Below, one piece after another: positions 17,010-64,000 of a DNA stretch of 64,000 nucleotides. The translations under genes and the position numbers were made by a program. The stretch is from NCBI GenBank assembly GCA_964035545.1, contig OZ037766.1, forward strand, positions 17,492,222-17,556,221, given 5' to 3'. The number at the start of each line of letters is the position of its first letter. Within the stretch, counting starts at the first letter, position 1. Source of the stretch: Bugula neritina (Eukaryota > Bryozoa > Gymnolaemata > Cheilostomatida > Bugulidae). Under the pieces are notes generated by a model. That model was not told the origin of the DNA, made no database searches, and saw only the letters and a list, made by a program, of their open reading frames with translations.

Positions 17010-20000
17010 ATGGGGTGTGAAGGCTGTGCTCGAATTACTTTGCTTGTGTTCAATATCGTCTTCTTTGTAAGTATGATTTGCTGGGCTAGTAGTGTCCGGT
17101 GTGCTTTCTATTTGCACATGGCAAATACTTTCACATAGTTCTGATTAGTTTCTTTAGAAAATGTATAATTTGCCATCTAATGTTACTACTTGCTATGTTA
17201 CTACAGCATATTCTACTAATGAAAAATTACACATTATAGACTAATTTAAAACATAGCATCTCATCCATGCCACTATCACCATACAGCTATGATTGTTCAG
17301 TATTTCATGAGTAAAATCTTGCAAAATTTTTATTTATTTTTTTTATTTTTTTTTTTATTTTTACTTATTTTTTTTATGAATGCTATTTGTTGCATCTATC
17401 CCAATTTTTAAAACTATAAGCAAGTTGAAGTATATAATTTCTACTGTTTTATATTTTCAGATTATTGGTTCGGTGTGCCTTGGTGTTGGAATTTGGGTGG
17501 TGGTCGATGGAGCTGTTTTCTTAGCGGTCTTGGGGAAAATACCAGAAGACACGTCTGTTGTTGGCAGTTTAATCCAGGATGCGGCCTATATACTCATAGG
17601 TGGTGGTGCTGCTATTTTCCTTATTGCATTTTTCGGATGCTGTGGAGCTTGGAAAAAGAACAAGTGTCTTTTAATTGTGGTTAGTAAAACTAGGGCATGA
17701 TTATGTGAGCATATTGTATTATGTGAGCATATTATATTATGAGAGCATATTATATTATGAGAGCGTATTATATTTTGTGAGCATATTATATTATGTGAGC
17801 ATATTATATTATGTGAGCATATTATATTATGTGAGCATATTATATTGTGTGGGCATATTATATTGTGTTTGTTGCAACAATTATGGTATGCATGAAATGC
17901 ATTTTTAGCAAATATTTCTAACACAGATACGTAGCCCCTTTATTATACATGTTTAGGTGCAACTATACTTAGTTGCAGTAGTAAATTTTAAAACATGGTC
18001 ACCAAAATGAATTTTTGTTTCACTCAAATTTGTTTGCCTCTAAGTAATACCAGGTTCATATTTTTGTAGTATGCGGTTATCATTGGGGTGTTGTTACTAC
18101 TGCAAATAGGCGCTTTTGTGACAGCCTATTTTTTCTATGATCAAATTGTTGACGTTCTCAATGACTCACTTGCCAATGCCCTCAACAAATCATATGACAG
18201 TGAATTCCAAGAAACATCTGCTGGAGAGTTTGATTATACTGGTGGGAATATCTTATCTAAAGGTCTCGATGCTATACAGATTGAGGTACAGTGCTGTCAC
18301 TTTTGCAGTAGAATCTTTTTTGGATTCTTTTACTTAAACTGCAGTGCTTGAAATTAGGTTATTTTTCACTATTGACTATATTAGATATTTAGTTATATTT
18401 TAGACTCCAATAGTTTCTCAGAATAACAGATGGTACATTATACATGAACATCATAAATAGGCCTATGTTTTACAAATCAACATAATAGTTATATGAATGA
18501 AATCACATAGTATTTTTTACCATTCAATACACTGTCTCACTTTACATACCAAGTTTCCACATATTATATAAAAAAGATTTGAGTTCATTGGCACCAAAGC
18601 CTACTTGGAAAATGTCCAAATGCACTGAGTAGCTGCAGGATGTTTTGAAATTGCCTCACCAGGTGACTTACAGAGGGGGCAACTCTAATTAATAAGTTTT
18701 GTTACAGCTATGCTACATATACATTGTAACTTACAGGGTTTATTTGTTTCCAGCAGAAATAAGCCATCAGAAAAATATACTTGTTTGTGTTTTGCAATCT
18801 GTTTTCCTTGCTTTTTTAGTACAATTTAGTTCACTAACTTAGTAACCGGTCAGCTAATTATTAATAAAGAAGTAAGTTAATTTCTAAGCCTCTAATTACT
18901 AATTTATCCAGCCATTGCATCTCAGCTTAAATTAAATTAAAAGACATGGATTTGTCTCACAGCTGACCTTGGTGTGTCGAAATATTATTGTTGGCTGTAG
19001 GTTGTTTTATAAGAACAATTAAAATTGTTTTATAGTATTTTCATCAGCTCATTACAAAAAGTCAGTCCATTTGATCATTGTATACTCATCATTGCTGAGA
19101 GACTAAAAATTGATTTAACAGTTCTTCAGATATGGTTTTAATTATTGGTAAGCTTTGTATTTACAATCACATAATGAATTTTTGTCTACTTTAAATGCAA
19201 AAGATACTGTAGGTTGAAAATATGAAATTGATACTTAGCAGTGTTTATACAGAGCAGTAACTGTTATCTTGCATACAACTTTAGTTGAAACTATAAATTT
19301 ATTGGGGGGGGGGGGGGGGAGTAGCTATTGAGGATATATTGTGTTCATTAATTTTGGTTTGTTATAATATGTAATATATGAGTATATGACAGGCTTGTTA
19401 CAATGGTCAGCTTGTGATATATGTCAGCTTATGATATATGTCAGCCTATGATATATGTCAGCTTATGATATATGTCAGCTTGTGATATGTGTCAGCTCGT
19501 TATATGGGTTAAAGATTATCACACAACTATCATACTCAGTGACAGTGTAATAATCTGCCAGAGGTCAAATTTATTTTCTCTTTATGTTCACAAGTAATAT
19601 GTAACTAATAGCTCATGTTTTCAGTTTGGATGCTGTGGTGTACTCAACTACACGGATTACCCAAATGATGCCTTTCCTCCCACCTGCTGCCCAGCAAACT
19701 ACTCAGGGAAGATTAAAGATTTAGCAGATCAGTTGTGGAAAGGAGATGTAACTACTTACACAACTACTGCACCAAACTGCCATGGGAATATTACTTACAT
19801 TGAAACAGTTCCTGTAAGTTTTCTTACTAACAAACTACTTGAGTCATTTTGATTGTAAATGAGTCACTCAAATAACTTTGACGGAACATATTTGAAATGA
19901 AAAAAAGTTTTAGAAATGGACTAAAGTACTTTTATCAAATTTTCATAAAGGTATATTTAATGATAAATGAAATGATTTATTTATCATATAATTATCTCTT

Positions 20001-22134
20001 ATTTCATCCGTTAAAAAAAGTCTTTGGACCTTTAAAATTCTTTCAGTATAGCTTTCTGATATGGAAATCAAAATTATGTACAAATATTAACTCTCTTACA
20101 GGGCTGTCTTGATGAAATTAAAGATTATATTCTGGACAGGAGTATAATTTTTATTGGAATAGCTGCAGGAACCATTGCTGTTCAGGTTAGTTTTAGCATA
20201 TAAGCATTTCACCTATAATTTTGCTTTTATTAGCAAAATCGGAAATAGTTTCACACGAATCGTAGTTAGATATAAAGGTAGGCTGTAACATACAAAGCAA
20301 AAATATATCTATCTATATAGTTTGCCTATATTTTCTATTATCTTATAGACTCTACACTAGTAGGCTATAATATTATTTTTCTAAAACCAATTTTCTTAGT
20401 ATAATTTTTGTGTAGTTTTATATTTCACTTTGTAGCTAAAATGGGGAAAATCGTTAGTAAAACTGATTCCTTTTGTAGTTGATTCTGGTCTTCCTATCTT
20501 GTTGCCTGTTTTGTTCCATTCAAAATGAGGAGAAGAAACCATGATTTCTGATAAAAAGAATAATTTTTTGATCAAAAATGATATTTATATGCTAATTCAG
20601 TAGTATTACACAAGCAATATAATTATTATATTATAGTCTATTAAAACATGTCATCTGATAACCAGCTTTAATTTATTCTCAATTTCTTTAATTTTATAGA
20701 TGCATTTAATTATTTTCTGCTCAAGTAATGTTTATGTATTGGATTGGAAAGTCTTGGGGTTTATTTAGAGACTTCACTGACTTTAATCATTTTTACAATT
20801 ATGAAGTTAGGCCAACACAGATTTAAGTTGCGGTTTTCTTTCCCATTTAATTGATTTCGGGTTCTAACTGTAAAAAGAAATGTTAATGCTTTGCATCTTA
20901 TTTCTTCCATTTCAGTGTGACTGTGTCCAACTGTTTACCTTATTATTTATTTTATTCTTTTATTCTAAAATTAAACCAAACAATAACTTTTAGCTTTGCT
21001 AATCTAGTTCTTTTATTATGGTACCTAGCAGAAAAAAGTTATTTCAAAATATTTTATGTGCCATTATTTTACCAACTCAGTAAATACGTAAAGTAACTTT
21101 TTATCGAAAGCTCATTTTCTTTAAATGCTATGTTTTCCATGTTTCATTGATACGGCACTTTGCTTATGCATTTATTATAAATAAATGTTCAGATGAGCTT
21201 GTATGCCTTGTTGGGAATATCACTCTGGGGATTAGCATCACTCAGTTGTGTGGGAGTGTTGGACATTTACGAGTAACTCATTTTAGTTAAACATTATAGC
21301 AAGTGATACTGCTTATAATTTCAAACCAGTTTAAGTTGTCTTGTAGTATTATGTTTAAAAGTTACAAGAACCATGTTTTAAATCCTTTTCAAAACAAATA
21401 CTAAATTCCTGTCTCAGTGCCATAAATCATGTTCATAAAGAATTGAGTTTTGTTGATTATGAAATATGCATGTTTCTTGTAGATTTATTTGACATATGCG
21501 CCTTGGCTGCAATTTTAATTGCAATATTTATTACAGAGGTTTTAATTATGTTATTGTATGACCAGCTTGATGTAAACTCAGTATAAATACTCTGCTTCTT
21601 TTAGATTGCCCTGCTTGTGGCAGCTGGTTGCTACATTAAGGTTGTTGGTAGTGAAGAATAACATAGCCTTTTGCTATGCTAGCTTCAAAAAGCATTTGAT
21701 GGTGATTAGTTTTTGAGCTGTGCTCCCTTTTCTTTTCTCCCAGTTTGAAAAGTGTTGACCCATATTTTACTAAACCAATTAGGTGACACACTGCTCCACA
21801 CTGCACTAACACTTAACAAGTATTTTGATAATATTTCTGATATTAGTCACTAATACTTCTGAGAAGATATTTGAAGACTTTCATGAGTTTTATATCCTCT
21901 GTAAGTTCTGCAGTCAGAATCAGTGACATCAGAATCTGTTCATTTGCATGTCTGATGGTATAATAGGCTCAACATATTAGTGGAGTGCTTTTATTCCTCA
22001 AAAGGCTTGAGTCTGCCAGTCATGAAATTGAACAGAAAAATTCACATTATTTCAATTTCTTATTGTAGGTTGTGCTGGTAATATTAGCTGCCTGCTATGC
22101 CAAATCTGTTGATGATGATAAAGACTATGCATAG
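17010..22134 (+). CDS. CD63-like tetraspanin with alternative last exons
   Basis: Constant exons: 17010-17066 (ATG start), 17461-17679, 18070-18285, 19625-19813 and 20102-20185. All are phase 0 and encode 255 residues. Start MGCEGCARI has juxtamembrane cysteines. TM1 is split over exons 1-2, TM2 ends in FGCCGAWKKNKC, and TM3 is at the start of exon 3. The large loop has the hallmark CCG, PTCC and two later cysteines (six in total), plus N-glycosylation sequons (NYT, NYS, NIT). Exon 5 supplies the outer half of TM4 (IIFIGIAAGTIAVQ). The inner half and cytoplasmic tail must come from one of the last exons listed separately (20479, 21193, 21605, 22069). The longest path uses 22069-22134, followed by AATAAA at 22352 and 22366. 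Family role: membrane organiser in plasma or endosomal membranes. The orthologue within the family is not resolved. Confidence 0.9.
17698..17872 (+). repeat. Minisatellite, about 18 bp unit, just after a 5' splice site
   Basis: About ten copies of a unit close to TGAGCATATTATATTATG, beginning some 18 bases after the donor at 17680 of tetraspanin exon 2. Confidence 0.9.
19304..19319 (+). repeat. Poly-G run
   Basis: Sixteen consecutive G in the tetraspanin intron 18286-19624. Similar runs lie near 22451 and 40117. Confidence 0.9.
19395..19505 (+). repeat. Tandem repeat, about 17 bp unit
   Basis: Five to six copies of a unit close to GATATATGTCAGCTTAT in the same tetraspanin intron. Confidence 0.85.
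20479..20544 (+). CDS. Tetraspanin alternative last exon A (TM4 inner half and tail)
   Basis: A TTTTGTAG acceptor is followed in phase 0 by LILVFLSCCLFCSI and the polar tail QNEEKKP, then TGA. Spliced to exon 20102-20185 it completes a normal-length TM4 with a juxtamembrane Cys cluster of the palmitoylated tetraspanin type. An AATAAA at 21180-21185 could serve this end. Confidence 0.75.
   Translation: MILVFLSCCLFCSIQNEEKKP
20700..20768 (+). CDS. Possible tetraspanin last exon A' (weak)
   Basis: A pyrimidine-rich acceptor (…TTTAATTTTATAG) is followed in phase 0 by MHLIIFCSS and a mixed tail ending VLGFI, then TAG. The hydrophobic part is short, and the tail lacks the charged, Cys-containing pattern of exons A, C and D. 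It could be a chance reading. Confidence 0.25.
   Translation: MHLIIFCSSNVYVLDWKVLGFI
21193..21276 (+). CDS. Tetraspanin alternative last exon B
   Basis: Phase 0 after AG at 21191-21192: MSLYALLGISLWGLASLSCVGVL, tail DIYE, then TAA. The hydrophobic stretch is longer than needed, and the polypyrimidine tract before the acceptor is weak, so this copy is less certain than A, C or D. Confidence 0.5.
   Translation: MSLYALLGISLWGLASLSCVGVLDIYE
21605..21661 (+). CDS. Tetraspanin alternative last exon C
   Basis: A CTTCTTTTAG acceptor is followed in phase 0 by IALLVAAGCYIKVVGSEE, then TAA. It matches exon D in pattern (L-V-x-A-A-x-C-Y-x-K-x-V), which suggests tandem exon duplication. The tail is short and acidic. 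Confidence 0.75.
   Translation: MALLVAAGCYIKVVGSEE
22069..22134 (+). CDS. Tetraspanin alternative last exon D
   Basis: A TTCTTATTGTAG acceptor is followed in phase 0 by VVLVILAACYAKSV and the acidic tail DDDKDYA, then TAG. Two canonical AATAAA signals follow (22352-22357 and 22366-22371), so this is the distal gene end. Confidence 0.85.
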   Translation, partial: VVLVILAACYAKSVDDDKDYA

Positions 22135-22351
22135 ATGTCTTTATACTTTATGTTGGATGATACTCTTTTAACATGTTTATTTTTTTTTTTTTTGAAGAAA
22201 AAATATTTCTCAGCCTGTGCTAATAATTCAACCTCTGGCTTTTACCAAACAAATATTGTGATTTTTTGAGCATCGTGATCTGATTTTAAAGCATTTTACT
22301 TTTGGCAATTTTCTATTTAATTTTTGCAGTTATAATGTTGGTGTTCTTTTT

Positions 22352-22371
22352 AATAAACTAATACAAATAAA
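22352..22371 (+). other. Polyadenylation signals of the tetraspanin gene
   Basis: Two AATAAA hexamers 9 bases apart, about 220 bases after the stop of exon D. Confidence 0.7.
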
Positions 22372-25300
22372 TGTGCAGTTGATATTCAAAATTTGGGCAT
22401 ACTATGAGAAATTCTTTTGCCAAATACTCCTATAATATAATTTTAATATGGGGGGGGGGGGCGCGAAACAGTCATAGGGGTACAAAAAGCTGGTCGAATT
22501 GTAAGAGAACTTATTGACTTAGAGTTGTGATTGTTTTTTAATAAAAAGGTAATGACATAATTATTCAGCCATTGTAGTTTCAACATTTGTGGAGCATACA
22601 TGTTGAAGAGGCCAGTCAAAAAATGTTTTTACCTACTTTTTTAAAAATTTTCAAGATGTCATTAAAGCTTTATAACCTTTTACACTCAAAGGTAACCAGC
22701 CTAGTTTTTACTGATATTGTTGCTATTGCTTGTCTTTACATTGCTTAACTAGTATAATAGCAAATTCTAAAATAAATTTTCTTTGAGCCACATTTATTTT
22801 CAACTTGGCCACCTAGGGCACAATGGGCCACCTGACCATTGCACCCTGATCACTGTTATTAATTTGTCTGCCCAAAAAATTAGTTGAAATGTTAATGAAA
22901 TCTATAGATATAGCTATTTCTGACTCTTTTTTGTAAAATATCAAAGACATCATAGTAAGACTACCAAATTACAAGGTTAAGCTGCATGCTCTCATATGCA
23001 TCTGGTGTGGTTATAGCTTTGCCATTTTATACAACATACAAAACACTCTGCTGTTGCTACTGATGGATAGTCATGATACTCATTATACATTATATCAATG
23101 AGGAAATATATACATGTATTTGACTAAAATAAATTGTGATTTGCTCATTTCCTCCCCCCTTCCGCACTCCAGCCAAAAACTGCAGTCACCTTAGCAACAA
23201 CGTTCATAAAAAAATTCCACTTGAAACTTTGTAGCACATGTTACTAAAGTTTTTTCTGATGAATGTTCCTGTTTAGTGGAAAGAGAAAAAAAATTTAGTT
23301 CTAAACGGTAATGATAATGGTGCCGTGAAAATGAGTGATATGCGTTTGATTTTGTCTCCTCCTGTTATCTGTGGTGGCACAAACTACTACTAAAACATGA
23401 TTTTCGCTGTAGATCTGAAAGAGATTTTTTTTACTTGTGTAAAATAAATAAATAAAGATTAGAGGCAACCAAATCAGCAAAGTTTCAATATATTTGTTGT
23501 GTCCCACCCAGTGGCCCCTTGCACCCGGTACCAGGGCACAATTGGCCGTATTTTAGTCATGAAAATTTCATTATTCTGAAGGTTGTGAAAGAGATAAAAA
23601 CAACAAGCTGATATCTGTAATAGACAACTGGTGTAGCAGTTATACTAGAGATTATTGAACTAGTAACTTGCAAAACAGACGAATGAGAGTAAAAAATTCA
23701 AAACTCAGCCCATTGTGCTCCCCCTATAACAATTCTGGTTTTTTTTTAATAATGCTTACCGGTACTTATTTATTTATCCATATTTTTTCATCAGTATAGT
23801 TTCTCACCTAAACTGCTGTAGTATGTTTTGTAGGTTCAAAGCTTGGTCAATGAGCACCATCTGACCCGGAGGTAGATGCAGTAATGGAGAAATTAAAGAA
23901 AGCCTGTGTTTTAAACTAGAAATGTAGCAAAAGAAGTTATGTTATGATTTTTAACCCGCGCCTCAAACCAAAATTTAATAAGAAAGTTGAAGCCTCAATT
24001 GAATATATTGAAAATAACTGAAAATTTATTATCTCAATTTCTCCACTACTGCTCCTAAATGGTCTTTTCCTTTTGTGTCTTTTCCTTTTTCCACATGTGT
24101 CTTTCACCCCAGCCTGCTCCTGTAAGTGATCATCGTAATCATCAACATTCTCATTTCTATTGTGTTCATCCTATCTCCCATCCTCTTAGTGACTGGCAAG
24201 GTTTCATTACTCTGAGTGAGTAGAGGTTTGATAAAATTAATGTTTTTTTGCACAACGCTGCTGACAAGTAGGTCCCTGCACCTGGTCCTAGCCAATCCAA
24301 TCCTTCCAGTAATTCTGATTATATTATTTGAAAACACTAGTCTCAGCAAATGGCTGCAGTCCTTTCATTCATAATTTTTCTCTTCACCTTATTAGCTGCT
24401 CCATTGCAGCATGCACTCAGTCTTGATTTGCTTAGCACCAGTTTAGTATCTTCTACAATAATTATTTTCTCCAATCTTCCAACATATCCTCCACTCTATT
24501 TGCCTCGCTCCCACTCAAATCTTCCACATGGCTCATGCGGGGTGCCCTCATTTATCTCCTTTGTAATGGTCCCTCTTTGTAATGACATTTAAAATTATTA
24601 TAAAAATAAATGAACACCTAGCCATGAGCCTTGATTCTAATTTGTTTGCCATCTTCATGCATATACTCACCAATTTTGGGCAGTCCTCTTACTTATTAGT
24701 CTGATACCTTATACTCCTCACACCAACTACATATTAATCTCTATCATAAAAGTTGTAGCATAGTAACATAGTAGGTATTTGAAAAGTCAAAATGAACACA
24801 ATAATAGTTGTACAGGCAACAGAGAATTAGTTTATATATTGAATAGCAAAGTACACTAAACGTAAAATTCAAGAGTTCCTCATATTATAAGCAAATGACC
24901 CTTTTTGCTGCTAAAGCACTTTAACACACAGTGTACTATATTTATGCCTTCTGCTGTATAAACTAAATATTTGACATGTTTAACTTTATCACTTGAATTT
25001 GTATGCAACAACAGCCTATTTGAATTGGTGTTGAAGTTTAATTATTCATTCAAATTGTTCACCTAGTTTTATGCCATGCAGAGACGAAATTGGGCCATAA
25101 AAGAATGACTACTCTTAAATTGTCATTTTTCAATGCGACCACAACACTTAATGATTTTTGATGTACAAATTGTAATACATGAATTTGCCAGTTTAGTTAG
25201 AACATCATTAGCTGGCAGCTCTTTTCCCACATTTCATACATTATGTTGCATTCCGTTAAATATTATGCTTTAAATATCACATTTTAATTATAAATGTGCC

Positions 25301-44836: not shown

Positions 44837-46008
44837 ATCTGTGTTTGTTATGTTATAATTTGTTGAACTTCATATATTTATGAATGAATAATTGCTTGAT
44901 GTATATTTGTTGTGTGTTTTATATTATGCTACCTGCAATGCAATTGAAAGTTATTAAGGAAAGGCAACTCCTCTCCATAAGCATCTTGAGCTGGTTTTAT
45001 GCCAGTAGCTGGCTCAACTGAAGAGTCAAACAAAAAACTCGATGTCAACTTTTGCAGTGGATTGATTTCATTAAAGTCATTTGCAAGCTTTATGCAAAAG
45101 AGTAATATATTTTTTATTTTCTCATATGCCTTTTATAAAGTAATTTTTAAATAGAGTACACTGAAAACTATGCATTTGTAGTTATACTGCATTTATAGAA
45201 ATAGATTGTTCAGCAAGAAAAAGAATCATTAAGAGTGTCTGTGCTCTGTGCATTGCAGTTATATAGTGGCACAAGCCACCTTACATAAAATGTTAGTGGC
45301 TTATTGTAAACTAACCAACGTAGAGTGGAATTAGCAAGTAAATACTGCATTAGCTGTAAAAATTGAAATAATGCTAAATTGCATCAAATAATTGTTTGGC
45401 GTCTATCTAAATTCTAAAACATTTATAGTAATTATTCATAAAATCAGTAATACAGATAATTAACAGTGCAGCCACTAATAAACACAAGGTTACTAAGTTG
45501 AAAACAAACTTGATCGTAATGCCACAGTGCATACTTCCTTTCATTCTTAACATACTTAGCCTATTCCAAATGTTTTCCATTGAAAATTAAACAGAATGGT
45601 CTCAGAATGCTCCAAAGTTAAAAGGTTTTTCATAACAACATAACACTTTTACACTACAATAAAAAACAACAAATAAAAAGGTTAGCTTGGCACAAGCACA
45701 ACACTATTATATGTATTTATGTAATATGCAACAAACTAGATATTTTTATGCAGGCATTTTAAAAATTTCTTGCTCAAGTCGTAGCAAAGAGATTTTTCTG
45801 ATCCAAATGAATATTATCTCAAGTGTATGCAATCAATAGTCTGCACCATTTTTACACTATAGGCAAAATGAACAATATTTAAATTTTGAAAAATCAATTT
45901 TACAAAAATGTTTATATTTTGGCATAAACATGTAGAGGGAAAACAGTAGCTTATTGTGCCTTTCTTTAGTTGTATTTTGGAAATTATAGAGAAGTATTTG
46001 CAAAAATA
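44837..46008. other. Spacer after the PH-domain gene
   Basis: AT-rich, no recognised domain or repeat. A pyrimidine-rich acceptor-like site (TTTCTTTAG, ending 45969) opens directly into the frame of the CAAX ORF. Confidence 0.4.
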
Positions 46009-46338
46009 ATGTCATTGGATCAGTTTATAAAGTCACCGACTGGAAACCCATTATATACAGAAGCAGTTGAGCATATAGAGCTGGAGCACCAGGCAGAAAT
46101 CACTATTCCAATAGAGATCCCAACAGAACATCCATCACCACCAGTATATCAAACACACAATCAACAACCAATACCTGATGTTGTAACAAATCAATCAAAG
46201 CTAACAGCTAATCAAACCGAAAAGCTTGTATCACCAATTAATAAAGAATTACAAGACACCAAAAAACCAACTACTGACATTACCTTAAAGCTAAATGCTT
46301 CATCTGAAAAAAGAGTGCCATGCTGTGCTGTTATGTAA
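46009..46338 (+). CDS. Small ORF ending in a CAAX prenylation box
   Basis: From the ATG at 46009 (MSLDQFIKSPTGNP) it runs 109 residues, ending KRVPCCAVM and TAA. The frame is also open back to the acceptor-like AG at 45968-45969, so this may be a last exon rather than a one-exon gene. Composition is Pro/Thr/Gln-rich and apparently disordered. CAVM is a good CAAX box (Met favours farnesylation) with an adjacent Cys that could be palmitoylated, as in paralemmins and some Ras/Rho tails; beyond that ending no family is recognisable. It could be an alternative 3' end of the upstream PH-domain gene, but exons 1, 3 and 4 of that gene end in phase 1, 1 and 2 and only exon 2 ends in phase 0, so joining it there would remove half of the PH domain. 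Confidence 0.5.
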   Translation: MSLDQFIKSPTGNPLYTEAVEHIELEHQAEITIPIEIPTEHPSPPVYQTHNQQPIPDVVTNQSKLTANQTEKLVSPINKELQDTKKPTTDITLKLNASSEKRVPCCAVM

Positions 46339-57881: not shown

Positions 57882-58426
57882 TGTTGTATAATTGAAGCAA
57901 TCTTTATTGAGTAGAATGATATAATATTTTAGGTCCTCTGCCAGTGAGCTCCAGTAGTAGACTGAACTACACTAGAACTCGCTGGCTTTTACATACAGCA
58001 AGAGATAGGGTTTTTCCTTTGTTGCCAAGATCGGAGGTCCGAAACGCCGACCTTCGGCATTTCGGAAGTCCGAAACGCCGAATTTCGGTGCTTCGGCATT
58101 TCGACAGTCCGAAACACCGACCTTCGGCATTTCGGGGCTTCGGCAGCCCAAAATGCCGACTATCGGTATTTCGGAAAGCCGAAATGCCGATCTCAGGCAA
58201 CAACAGGAAACAAGCATATGCAAAAATCTACCACACACACTCCTCCATCGGAAAGCACACTTTCCGATAAAAGGGAATGCGACACAAATAACAAAAAAAA
58301 TGAAGTAACGAAGGGAACAACACAAGAAGTTCTGCACAAGAAATGGTATGACAGGTATAAAAAAAAATTAACAGAATGCGACATATAAACACCAATATCA
58401 TGCAAAATAATAAAAACAAAAGAACA
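57882..58426 (-). mobile_element. Long terminal repeat (3' LTR) of the gypsy element
   Basis: On the minus strand it opens TGTTCTTTTG directly after a polypurine tract and ends TTATACAACA, that is TGTT…AACA inverted ends. It contains an AATAAA (minus) at 57903-57908 near its end, as expected for the R/U5 side. The partner LTR lies outside the window, so length (about 545 bp) and ends are inferred. Confidence 0.7.
58031..58192. repeat. GC-rich hairpin array inside the LTR
   Basis: Alternating CCGAAACGCCGA-type and TTCGGCATTTCGG-type words, about five inverted pairs in 160 bases, able to form consecutive stem-loops in DNA or LTR RNA. Very CpG-rich compared with the surroundings. Confidence 0.85.
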
Positions 58427-58427
58427 T

Positions 58428-58440
58428 GCTCCCTCCACCA
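58428..58440 (-). promoter_or_regulatory. Polypurine tract (plus-strand DNA primer)
   Basis: GGTGGAGGGAGCA on the minus strand, immediately upstream of the LTR start. Used in LTR retrotransposon replication to prime second-strand synthesis. Confidence 0.65.
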
Positions 58441-58459
58441 GTGTCAACATAAAGCAGTC

Positions 58460-59422
58460 TTATTGCTGGTCTGTGTCGCGTGCCCGCTCTAGGGGGCTTA
58501 CGCGCCGTCTTAGCTCCCCCAACTCCTCCTCATATCGCCTCAGGCGCCGGCGCAGGGACCGGACCTCCTCTTCCAGCTGTATAGATGCAGCGCGGGTGTG
58601 GCTGGCGGCGCCATGTTGGGGTCGTTTTCCTTCGCCCGTCGCCAAGGGTCGCCGACTCAGGTTCGGAGACCCGGACCTGCCGCCTTCGACCCGTGCCAGC
58701 ATGACGCGAAGTGGCTGGGTGGCCGCTGGTTGAGGTGTTGTGACGAGTTTCTCTTCTACCTCCCGGATTGGGCGGCATACGGGAAATTCTTGGGCGAGGG
58801 TAGCCCGTTTGGGGGGTCCGCTACGTGGGGCAGCACCAGGTCCCAGAATTTGGGGTAGCTGGCCTGGTCCACCGCAAACGTGTAGCCCGTGTGGCAGCGT
58901 GAGATGCGCTGATGTCTCAGCACGTAATCGCGCTGACAAGAAAACTCGCCGTACGGGCAAAACACGTTAATGTAGTGCTGCGGGGCGTGAAACCGCAGCT
59001 GCCGTGTGGAGGAAAACTTCCTCCAACACTGCTGGCAGATGCGGTTGCCCGGCTTGCCGCACGTCTGGCCAATTTTCAGGTTGGTCTCCCGGGAAACCAA
59101 TACTGGCGGGCGACCAAGGCCCGAGGCAAAGCCAGTAATTGGGAACTATCTTCCTTCTCTGCAGGCTCCCATCGAGCAGTATGCCCTGCTCCTCCCCGGC
59201 TGAGAGTTGAAGCTTAGCCGGGTTGGACCCAGGGCCACTGGTGCTAGTGGGAGGCACCCCTGTTAGTGGAGTGGTGGTGCTGGCTGCTGGGGGCCGGAAC
59301 AGGGGCCGGTGGAGGGGGGAGTTGGTATAACTCGACCCGACCTCCTCTACATCCAGACAATTCCCTACAACAGATAGGAGAGGCTGTGACAAGCCGATTT
59401 CTCTATCGACGAATTTCGGCAT
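58460..59422 (-). pseudogene. Extra 3' ORF of the gypsy element: Cys/His motif and coiled coil
   Basis: Minus-strand pieces 59422-58967, 59100-58756 and 58960-58460 in three frames form one decayed reading frame downstream of integrase, where env would sit in env-bearing elements. It has a Pro/Thr-rich start, then a Cys/His-rich segment (CQQCWRKFSSTRQLRFHAP, later FCPYGEFSCQRDYVLRHQR), then a C-terminal charged coiled coil (LEEEVRSLRRRLRRYEEEL) to the stop at 58460. There is no signal peptide or membrane anchor, so it is not an envelope. The Cys/His pattern looks like a C2H2-type pair and is known to me only from invertebrate gypsy-associated ORFs; function unknown. Confidence 0.7.
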
Positions 59423-60267
59423 AGACTTATACGGAGCTAAACTATAAACTGGGGGCCGAGATGAGTCAGAGAGTGTGACCGAGCCTACGTCTTAGTCCAA
59501 CAAGAAGTCGTGGACAGGGTCACCTTCCAGATCCATCTTGGTCCCGGGTTCTAATAAGTCAGATTCCAAAGAATCTAACAAACTCCAATCAACATTAGCT
59601 CAGTTGGACTCCGTTTGTGAAGGTTCCAACCTTAAAGGAATACCTGTAGTAACGTTAGTAGCTTCAATGAGTGTAGCATCCATGTCCAAGTTGGAGTTTG
59701 GTTGTGATTTGAAATTAGAATTCAAATTTTGTTCGTCAATTTTAAAATTGAGTGCTGCTCGCGCGGTGGCTGTAGTAACAATAGCCGAGCCTCGTGGTTC
59801 AGAATGTTTACCTGCAACGGCGATGGCCACGTTATCCGTGGAAATTCCCACTAGATTTTGAAATGATAACTCAGGCGATCGCGCGCCCCCGAAATTCGGT
59901 CTGAGTTTTCTTTCTCTTGGTGGAATTCTCCAGAGTATTGGAGGAAGTTGCCAACCAAGGCAGGGTAGTCTGTCGAGTTAGGGGAACTAGGATCACGAGG
60001 GGATAACTCCAGGCATCCTACTGCATAATCTGCCAGGTACCTAGGAGGTCTTTTGTCCCTCTGGCTCCTTTCAAGCCGTAGGGGTTCTGTCAGGGCTTGC
60101 GATTCTTCGACTACTGCGGCGGGGGGGAGAGGGGGGTCCTGTCATCACTGGCGCTATGGGCGAGGACGTCTTCCTCCGATTGGGGTGGTACCCTCGGGGC
60201 CTGTGATTGTTGTAATTGTCACCCCTGTCTTTGTTGCTGTTTTAGTTGTTCCAGTAGGGCGGCCTGT
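59423..60267 (-). mobile_element. Spacer between integrase and the extra ORF
   Basis: GC content falls toward 59550-59870, where Asn/Ser-rich frames give no recognised domain; no start is assignable. It is part of the same element. Confidence 0.4.
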
Positions 60268-61500
60268 TCACGCGCTGCCTTTCTCTGAATGACAACTTCC
60301 ACCTCTCTTGGTTAAGCGACTCTCCTCCGATGGTTGGGCTGGCGATTGGGCTCTAAGAGGGGTGGAGCCTGACCCACCGCGTCCGGGCTGGCATGGTATG
60401 GTTTTAAAGCGCTGCTCGCTCTGGACTGAAACTTGTCCAGAGCGCTCCACACGGTATGTGTGGTTGGGCAGTACCTCCACTACGCAGTAGGGTCCGACGA
60501 ACTTGGGCTGAAGCTTAGCCGACTGTCCGCGTCGCCTTCGGTAGCTCACCATCCAGACCCAGTCTCCCACCTGGTACAACGGGGGCTCTTCTGAGTCTTC
60601 TGCGCAGGTCTGCCACTGCTGGGCATGCAGTGCATCATAAGCTTTGCCCATGATTTCTATCAGACCTCCTACATACTCGTGTACCGGTGACTTGGGGGCG
60701 GGAACATGGTATGTCAGGTGTTCTGGAACCCGCGTCTCCCGACCTAGCATCAGAAAGTTTGGGGTCTCCTGTGTGGCGGAGTGTGGTGTGCAGCGGTAAA
60801 CCCGCATGATTTGTGGCGGCACCACGTCCCATTCTTCCTTACCTCGACCGAAGAGCAGGCTCCTGAGGGCGTCACCCAACATCCTGTTGTTACGCTCGAC
60901 GACTCCGTTTCTCTTGCGGGTGATTTGGGGTGGTTCGACTCTGGTTCACAATCCATATTTGGCAGAGGTCTCCCATAAGCTGGGACTGGAACTTGGCGCC
61001 CTGGTCCGTATGTATCTGCTCGGGTAACCCGAGGTAACAGAACACATTTTGGTCCAGAGCCCGGGCCACTGTGGGGGCTGTTGCGTCTGGAATAGCCAGA
61101 GCATCTGCCCACCGGGTAAAGTGGTCCGTGAGCACCAATATCCAGGTGTTCCCTCTGGCGGATAACGGCATGGGCCCAACGAGGTCTACCGCCACTACCT
61201 GCCATGGTCGACCAGCGTGTAGCCGGCGTCGACCAGTGGTTTCCGTGGGGCGGGCGGCCATGCTTACTAGCTTGGCAGACCTTGCACTGCCGTACCCGCA
61301 GTCATACGTCTCGAGTCATTCCGGGCCAATATCAACGCAGCCGCAAACATCTGATGACCCGACTGACTCCAGAGTGAGCCTGCTTACGGGTGTCCCAGAT
61401 CAGTTCCTACCGGAGGGCGCGTGGACCGATGATGCAGTCCCTCTCCTGTTGACGGTTCTCTGCTGCTAACGTTATCATTAAGGGGCCGTCAGGACTGACC
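60268..61500 (-). pseudogene. Ty3/gypsy integrase (broken)
   Basis: Minus-strand order: HHCC finger remnants ending in a Q-CKVC-ASK block (about 61500-61262), DDE core in 61261-60890 (VAVDLVGPMPLSARGNTWIL with the first Asp, HTDQGAKFQS with the second), then frame 60882-60268 with RVYRCTPHSATQETPNFLMLGR and the C-terminal GDWVWMV…KFVGPYCVVEVLPNHTYRV domain. A frame change at about 60890 falls beside the third catalytic acidic residue, so no single frame spans the enzyme. Confidence 0.9.
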
Positions 61501-61566
61501 TTGAGGGCATCCCAACGACGACAGAGGAGTTGGAACTCAACGTCTCCCTGCTGCTGTTGGTCTTTG

Positions 61567-62334
61567 CTAGGTCGTCGGCCCTCCTTCTTGCCCCGAAATA
61601 TGTCTGCTACCGCGCCGAGTAGCGTCTCCTGGAGTCGGCACAGCTCCTTGACATTCTGATACAGAGTGGGGTTGGTGTGGAGCGCCTGGACAACGTCTGA
61701 GTGGGGTTTCGGTCCGAAGATGGCCGTGCTCCCATCGATAGACGGTGCCCGCCCCTAACTCTGTTTCCACGCCAAAGCGAGCGGGTCCCCCGTCCCTCTT
61801 CGCGATGTGCAGGCATTGCTTACAGTCCCCTACCGGCCGGCGGCTCATGCCGTCGGCGTTCCCATGCTTCCGGCCTGCACGATGCTCTATTTGGTAGGAG
61901 AACTCGGCAAGAATCTCTAGCCAACGAGCCACCTGGCTTGAGGGCTCTGCACGTTTACACAGCCATATCAGTGATGCATGGTCTGGTCGCAACCGGAACG
62001 TTCTCCCATACAGATATGGCCAAAAGTGCTCGACCGCCTTGACTACTGCTAGGAGTTCCTTCCTAGTAGTGCGGTAGTTTTTCTCGGCGGCCGCGAGAGC
62101 CTTGCTGTAGTAAGCCACGACCACCTCACTTCCACCCTGGACTTGAGACATAACAGCTCCCACACTGTGGTCGCTGGCGTCAGTGTCCAGGATGTACTCT
62201 TTGGCTGGATCAGGATACGCCAGAATTGGCGCCTCCATTAGCCGTTGCTTGAGGTGGTCGAATGCCTGCTGCTCCTCCTGTGTCCACTGCCACCGGACCC
62301 CCTTTGCGGTCAGCCGATTTAACGGCTGAGCCAC
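61567..62334 (-). pseudogene. Gypsy RNase H and connection domain
   Basis: Frame 62334-61567: connection WTQEEQQAFDHLKQRL, RNase H with ILDTDASDHSVGAVMSQ, YSKALAAAEKNY, TRKELLAVVKAVEHFWPYL and HGNADGMSRRP. It is cut from the RT by an in-frame stop at about 62366. Confidence 0.92.
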
Positions 62335-62364
62335 CCCTGCGAAGCCAGGTATGTACTGCCGGTA

Positions 62365-63790
62365 TTACCCTACTAGGCCCAGGAATGCTCGCAATTCGGG
62401 GAGGTCATGGGGAACAGCCCACTCCTTCACAGCCTGTACCTTCTCTGGGTCGGTAGAGACACCGTCACGGCATACCACATGGCCCAGGTACGTGACTTCT
62501 GGCAGCAGGAGTGCACACTTGGAGGGCTTCAGCTTCAGTCCAGCTGCCCGGAGACGGTCAAAGACCTCCCGCAGACGACTGACATGAGTCAAAAAGTTTG
62601 GGAAGATTACAATGACGTCGTCCAGATAGATGAGGAGGGTCTTCCAGTGTAATCCACTAAGGACCTGCTCTATGAGTCGCTGGAAAGTTGCCGGGGCGGA
62701 CATTAGTCCAAATGGCAGTACTTTCCACTTCCAGAGCCCGTCGCGAGTGACGAATGCTGCTTTGTCCTTGGCAGTACCCGCTAAGCAGATCCAAAGTACT
62801 AAAGTACTTGCTACCCGCGAGGGCGTCCAGCGACGCATCTATCCGTGGGAGAGGGTAGGCGTACTGGATGGTAACGCTATTGAGTCTGCGGTAGTCCACA
62901 CAGAACCTCCAGCTACCATCCTTCTTCTTGACCAGGACTACTAAAAAGCTCCACGCACCGTGGGCAGACTCAATCAGATCCCGGTCGAAAAGATCTTGCA
63001 CCTGCCGGCTCACCTCCTTCTCCGAGCCTAGGCGTCGGGTTGGCTGCCTGATGGGAATGGTGCCGGCTGCCAGGGGTATCTCGTGAGAGATAACCTCAGT
63101 CAGCCCCATGTCTCCATCGCCATGACTGAAAACATTACTGTACTCCGTGAGTAGTTGAGCCAGTCCTTGGCGTTCAGTACTACTCGTACAGTTTCCACAT
63201 GCTCCATCATACAGGTCAGCCATGTGCTCTGGGACTGCTTCTTGGCTGGTGCGAAGGGGAGGGGGGTTTCCCTGGGTGTCGGCCACTGTTTCCACTGCCG
63301 GACCCACATCCGCCTCCTGGATAGAGTGGTACTTCCACACCAGCACTCCAGCCAATAATCGGACAGGTTCCGTAAAGGGGTTGATACACTGCACGAGATC
63401 TTGCCGACAGTCTAGCCGATTCAGGCTGTTTGCTAGTCGGATCGCTCCGTGCGTTCCCTCAACCAACCCCAGGCCGGCGATCCCTTTGCAGTTAACTCTG
63501 CAGCGGAGGGTCACCTGGGATCTCCCTGGGACCGTGCAGTCCTGTACTACCTGGACTCCGCCCACCAAGGGCCTGCCAAACTTGTCAACGCAGACAAGTT
63601 CTTTTCCAGCCATCACTACCGCCGACCTCTGGAAATCCATGCTACACTGGTGTTTCTCCAGAAACGGCATTCCCTGGATGGCATCTTCCTTCAGCTGGCG
63701 GACTATAAATGTCTCGTGGATTTCCTGATCACGAACATGTCCAGGTAGTGTAATGATGCCATAGAAAAGAATGCATGATCCGTCCGCCAA
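62365..63790 (-). pseudogene. Gypsy reverse transcriptase (broken)
   Basis: Frame 63790-62657 carries the post-protease linker and RT fingers (AHGAWSFLVVLVKKKDGSWR, FCVDYRRLNSVTI, YPLPRIDASLDAL, YFSTLDLLSGY). Frame 62838-62365 carries FVTRDGLWKWKVLPFGLMSA, the catalytic IYLDDVIVI and LGHVVCRDGVSTDPEKVQAV. A frameshift near 62790 separates them. This is the usual protease, RT, RNase H, integrase order of Ty3/gypsy (Metaviridae-type) elements. Confidence 0.92.
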
Positions 63791-63993
63791 CGTACCATGC
63801 GCACCTTCTTACGGCTCGAGGCTCGCCGCTCTTGGGCGCCAAGGGTGTCAAAGAGACGCCTACTCAACAAGTTTGTAGTGCACCCAGTATCCAGTAGGAA
63901 TGTGGCAGCTTTACCCAAAATTTTTCCAGGCAAGAAGTAACTGCTTCTATACGGCTGGGTGCTCCTGGAGCGGTTAGTCTCTGGGGGAGACAC
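63703..63993 (-). pseudogene. Gypsy protease (start outside window)
   Basis: FLLDTGCTTNLLSRRLFDTL holds the DTG active-site triad of retroviral-type aspartic proteases. The frame shifts near 63795 relative to the RT frame. Gag and the 5' LTR lie beyond the right edge. Confidence 0.85.
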
Positions 63994-64000
63994 AACTTGG

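Follow-up and report, generated by a model that had tools for sequence, protein, structure and literature searches.

Candidate alternative last exons that split the fourth transmembrane helix of a Bugula neritina tetraspanin gene

Results

A tetraspanin-18-like gene with its last intron inside TM4

We analysed a stretch of 64,000 nucleotides of the Bugula neritina genome (hereafter the window), which contains a tetraspanin-18-like gene whose last intron lies within the fourth transmembrane helix (TM4), in phase 0. The constant part of this gene comprises five exons, all in phase 0, which together encode 255 amino acids and break off halfway through TM4:

17010..17066, plus strand: constant exon 1, with the start codon and the first part of TM1; phase 0, GT donor; its protein matches P0001
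17461..17679, plus strand: constant exon 2, TM1-TM2 with the GCCGAWKK motif; match to Pfam PF00335
18070..18285, plus strand: constant exon 3, TM3 and the start of the large extracellular loop
19625..19813, plus strand: constant exon 4, large extracellular loop with the CCG motif
20102..20185, plus strand: constant exon 5, the penultimate exon, with the end of the loop and the outer half of TM4 (...GIAAGTIAVQ); phase 0, donor CAG/GTTAGT

Joined to the first tail exon downstream (tail A, below), the constant exons match the tetraspanin family PF00335 over profile positions 2-225 of 225 with 160.5 bits, against a curated cut-off of 32.1. The cysteines of the large loop fall in FGCCG and PPTCC in exon 4 and in GCL in exon 5, so that the CCG signature is present. 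The whole-domain match, CCG, the GCCGAWKK loop and the juxtamembrane cysteines are all shared with the tetraspanin-18-like branch of the family. The exon reconstruction bears out the original prediction that the exon at 20102-20185 ends in phase 0 inside TM4, a helix in which vertebrate tetraspanin genes also have an intron. The window gene departs from this branch in that several candidate tail exons, and not a single one, follow its TM4 phase-0 intron.

The annotated B. neritina protein P0001 (EB796_012506; 96% identity) carries tail A and ends LILVFLSCCLFCSIENEEKKP. P0003 of Watersipora subatra, recorded as 'tetraspanin-18-like isoform X1', stands at 56%, has an A-like tail and ends LLLVIIACCLFCAIRNDETKV; the other close proteins are P0002 (58%) and P0004 (51%).

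Neither an Rfam family at gathering score nor a tRNA was found in the window. An open frame at 45970-46338 has a CAAX-like end (...KRVPCCAVM). From 58000 to 64000 the GC content rises from about 33% to 53-58%, and minus-strand open frames there read like a Ty3/gypsy-type polymerase and integrase; we read this part as a putative GC-rich retroelement in an AT-rich genome.

Open segments downstream of the penultimate exon

As originally predicted, four open segments follow exon 5, each preceded by AG, in phase 0 and ended by a stop. Together with the candidate poly(A) signals they are arranged as follows:

20479..20544, plus strand: tail exon A (LILVFLSCCLFCSIQNEEKKP), the one expected to end the gene; profile score 22.4; present in P0001 and similar in Watersipora P0003
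21180..21185, plus strand: AATAAA, which may be the poly(A) signal of transcript A; a G/T-rich stretch comes after it
21193..21276, plus strand: segment B, rejected as an exon; within the stretch downstream of AATAAA; profile score -21.6, acceptor -5.4
21605..21661, plus strand: candidate tail exon C (IALLVAAGCYIKVVGSEE), plausible, weaker; profile score 4.1, acceptor 5.6; mutual best match with D
22069..22134, plus strand: tail exon D (VVLVILAACYAKSVDDDKDYA), a very probable alternative last exon; profile score 18.1; 1 of 3000 shuffles as good
22352..22371, plus strand: a pair of AATAAA motifs (22352 and 22366) that could serve as poly(A) signals for D, and also for C if it is read through

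The profile spans the 14 residues that follow the intron position in TM4 and was built from 54 homologous tails, that is, the 68 homologues found less four fragments, P0001 and nine with gaps or insertions. With it we scored every AG-preceded, phase-0 segment with a stop, and A, D and C were the top three of the 57 such candidates in 20186-23000. The control set comprised 10,136 candidates from both strands of 248 kb, drawn from 20 loci chosen for other tetraspanin genes and from the remainder of the window (16.9 kb upstream, 35.1 kb downstream). The score of C was reached by 23 of these: 18 were tetraspanin gene ends (17 separate exons and one, in L027, with the AG inside an exon) and five were background. 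The best background candidate scored 7.1, and no non-tetraspanin candidate reached the score of D.

Such segments can arise by chance, as T-rich intron sequence after an AG often encodes a hydrophobic run and a stop. This explanation fits B, which 2622 of the 10,136 control candidates equalled or exceeded, and is possible for C, whose score was reached by the best candidate in 60 of 3000 dinucleotide shuffles of 20186-22400. It fits D badly, however, since only one of the 3000 shuffles did as well, and in none of them did the second-best candidate attain the level of C. A and D exceed chance, C does so marginally and B does not, and chance is a very unlikely account of the array.

Scored against PF00335, the complete forms gave 160.5 bits with tail A, 156.4 with D, 151.5 with C and 148.1 with B, the D form lying 8.3 bits above the B form; the match ended at profile position 217 of 225 for B and at 223-225 for the other three. 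Acceptors and donors were scored with a generic model, in which the acceptor of C was the best of eight (5.6), that of A scored 3.0, that of D a mediocre 0.0 and that of B was the worst (-5.4). The four constant-exon acceptors, at 1.8 to 4.7, are all stronger than that of D. A, C and D each have an acceptor, the same phase and a stop of their own. The expectation of four alternative last exons holds up well for A and D and fairly for C, and fails for B on profile, acceptor and Pfam match.

Segment B starts 7 bases past the AATAAA at 21180, in the G/T-rich stretch, and has no cysteine at the juxtamembrane places where A, C and D have them. Two properties speak for an exon: its hydrophobicity (1.96 against 2.53 to 2.67 for the others, on a 19-residue scale) and its exon-like GC content of 0.44, as high as that of C. 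On balance B is probably not an exon; in the simplest reading, the 3' UTR of the A transcript would run from 20545 to about 21200, and B would lie at its poly(A) site or beyond.

In a comparison of 21 tail exons, from which those of L041 and of the second L032 gene were left out, C and D are mutual best matches, with a BLOSUM sum of 36 and identity at 6 of 14 residues and 24 of 42 bases, which agrees with the earlier remark that the two look like an exon duplication. The cysteines predicted at the inner end of TM4 are likewise present, in A at C8, C9 and C12, in C at C9 and in D at C9 of the tail, giving counts of three, one and one; the net charges of the A, C and D segments are 0, -1 and -2. 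We considered two outside sources for these sequences and rejected both. A second, downstream tetraspanin gene as the origin of C and D found no support, as the first 25 kb of the window held no further tetraspanin exon at the threshold used; nor did a transposon or repeat, as a DNA search that skipped very common words returned no other genome match to the tail region.

Between the stop of A and 21192 no donor-like site scores above 0, which is weak evidence because one real donor of the gene scores only -0.3. Neither AATAAA nor ATTAAA occurs between the stop of C and D. The 3' UTR of a C transcript would therefore include D unless the transcript is spliced onward, and weak donor-like sites lie 40, 121 and 239 bases past the stop of C. 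The best reading of A and D is as alternative last exons that would swap the inner half of TM4 together with the tail, and C is a fair candidate for a further one. The layout as a whole is a candidate case of recurrent alternative last exons, with two or three tails in the window gene and not four.

Twin tails in two further tetraspanin genes

A Pfam search of the genome gave 41 exon matches, and we examined 22 tetraspanin genes, from the window and from loci L023 to L046 (C114:4800 and C3:16441261 being left out). A separate tail exon after TM4 is present in 19 of the 22; L027 has no intron there, and L031 and L036 were left unassigned. More than one tail was assigned in 3 of the 19, the window gene, L030 and L034 (2 of 18 outside the window), by position and profile, a procedure that could miss low-scoring second tails. 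In both L030 and L034 the 10 kb locus has a single set of constant exons, with the twin pair behind it:

L030, 2386-2451 and 2584-2649, reverse strand: twin tails LIGIVFACCLGKAIKREHSYA and LIGIVLSCCLARAIKQEYEVV, with 132 bases between them
L034, 5713-5775 and 6224-6292, reverse strand: twin tails VMGIVFSCCLARAVRKEYEV and VIGVVVSCYLAGGLRNKKHRLL

The twins differ by pS 0.65 and pN 0.15 in L030 (p 0.003) and by pS 0.75 and pN 0.28 in L034 (p 0.006), from rounded counts over 15 codons each, which are small samples; by this measure both pairs look constrained. The same layout, with synonymous-biased divergence, in two further genes makes the idea of alternative tails stronger than it is from the window alone. 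The second tail of L030 is nearest to the first tail of L034 (58 against 55 for its own twin), and for the second tail of L034 the closest match is a tail of L040 (44, with 35 for its own twin). As the twins are not mutual best matches, these comparisons stop short of showing a simple within-gene duplication.

One L030 tail has the CD63-like C terminus EYEVV and the other ends in EHSYA; the C-terminal motif of CD63 itself is GYEVM. Going by these motifs, the L030 pair would switch between a YxxPhi-type end and an end without YxxPhi. The YxxPhi motif is absent from tails A, C and D, so an endocytic switch of the L030 type is not indicated in the window gene.

The L030 locus also has a good donor (CAG/GTAACC) 30 bases past the stop of its first tail and neither AATAAA nor ATTAAA between that stop and the second tail, so the first tail may be a stop-bearing cassette exon. 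Under the 50-base rule a stop-bearing cassette with a near donor escapes decay, and the L030 cassette would do so. A composite 3' region of this kind, in which a stop-bearing cassette is spliced onward and the downstream tails serve as 3' UTR, would make the choice one of inclusion or skipping and not of competing ends. It draws support from L030 and from the weak donor-like sites after the stop of C, but sits poorly with the window's tail A, after which comes an AATAAA and, as far as 21192, no donor-like site above 0, and with L034, which has an AATAAA between its two tails. We hold such a composite region to be quite unlikely.

Records of the tails and their divergence

Of the three tails A, C and D, only the A type was recognised in other records (P0001 and P0003). 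When just the last 52 residues of the D form served as a protein query, the sole match was P0001, which bears tail A. In an alignment search for the D tail, which yielded 252 proteins with E no higher than 1e-15, the close ones among the 120 matches listed were only P0001 to P0004, together with two fragments, P0009 and P0102, and scans of viral and prokaryote contigs for stray bryozoan DNA found nothing. That these searches returned the tail-A protein P0001 for the D tail, and no C or D tail from any relative, counts against alternative last exons. The protein collection is clustered at 90%, so that a D isoform of the same species could hide in the cluster of P0001; this cluster has one member sequence, and hence no D isoform is recorded there. 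The 90% cluster of P0003 has two member sequences, and as P0003 is labelled X1, a near-identical Watersipora isoform X2 of the same gene may exist.

We found no synonymous excess among A, C and D (C/D p 0.73, A/D p 1); for A and C the divergence ran in the opposite direction (p 0.08). This genome alone therefore gives no selection evidence for C or D, which could be old, unused copies. On that account only A is used, and C and D are old tail duplicates, intact in appearance, whose splicing has ceased or become very rare. Tail A in the annotated B. neritina protein, the missing synonymous excess and the low profile score of C are all in keeping with it. D is nevertheless fully open, with an acceptor and a stop, and scores like the tails assigned to other genes in this genome (2.0 to 33.4); C and D share just 24 of 42 bases, time enough for decay to have broken them; and in L030 and L034 the paired tails seem to be under constraint. 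We consider the use of A alone unlikely.

A tandem array of large-loop exons

A further tetraspanin locus (G000:C1:8924150-8951433, spanning L024, L043, L044 and L025) has one TM1/2 exon, one TM3 exon, one tail exon and six tandem large-loop exons of 282 or 285 bases. All six are open and of phase 0-0, with intact acceptors and ATG/GTRAGC donors, and they are candidates for mutually exclusive ectodomain exons. A gap of 20 kb splits the array into three and three, and it may represent two genes, one of them without its first exons. When the array was taken together with one copy per neighbour gene, pN equalled or exceeded pS in 6 of 12 equal-length pairs (rounded counts), unlike in the tail twins.

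Discussion

What the analysis shows is the exon anatomy, the match to the profile, the statistical results and a like arrangement in two other genes; use in RNA, the mechanism of choice and the function are what we infer from them. We think it reasonably probable that the window gene has a last intron inside TM4 followed by competing last exons. With the exon 5 donor (after 20185) joined to A and the transcript ending at the poly(A) signal near 21180, the product would be the common protein, which has the juxtamembrane motif CCLFC and QNEEKKP as its tail. If D were chosen, or with less certainty C, the transcript would use the poly(A) signals at 22352 and 22366 and encode a different inner half of TM4 and a different tail, with one cysteine in each and the ends VVGSEE (C) and VDDDKDYA (D); the ectodomain and the first three and a half helices would stay unchanged. 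The choice would depend on how well the later acceptors compete with the early poly(A) site. Signals for sorting and scaffold binding reside in tetraspanin tails. The isoforms would likely differ in palmitoylation at the inner end of TM4 and in tail partners or sorting, and the tails may switch trafficking or partners.

KRAS4A and KRAS4B are the best-known case in which alternative 3' coding exons exchange a membrane-anchoring tail, and one of the two forms has a palmitoylated cysteine. It differs from the window gene in that KRAS is a small GTPase, not membrane-spanning, and has two forms only. Among spiralians, the Lineus longissimus tetraspanin-18-like models X1 and X2 (P0089 and P0088) are annotated isoforms that differ by one block of related sequence; unlike in the window gene, this block belongs to the large extracellular loop and both models have the same tail, and it is a possible parallel to the six-exon array described above. 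In Caenorhabditis elegans, one tetraspanin locus yields TSP-14A and TSP-14B, which differ in membrane targeting (apical/endosomal in one case, basolateral in the other), and the difference between them consists of 24 N-terminal residues with a di-leucine-type signal, and not of TM4 or the tail (PMC8827444). Among the titles and abstract openings that we searched, in which subscription papers are thinly covered, no tetraspanin with tandem last exons was found.

If the window gene keeps its ectodomain and swaps the inner half of TM4 and the tail, it would offer a natural experiment that sets partner recognition apart from trafficking, and the presence of such a layout in three genes of one genome would make it a recurrent device. 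We put forward more tentatively, as a possibility that is somewhat doubtful, that bryozoan tetraspanins are modular receptors, with at least three genes that use tandem last exons to swap the inner half of TM4 and the tail (in one pair, a CD63-like endocytic EYEVV would be turned on or off) and another gene with six tandem large-loop exons. If this is true, one small family would diversify both binding on the outside and sorting on the inside.
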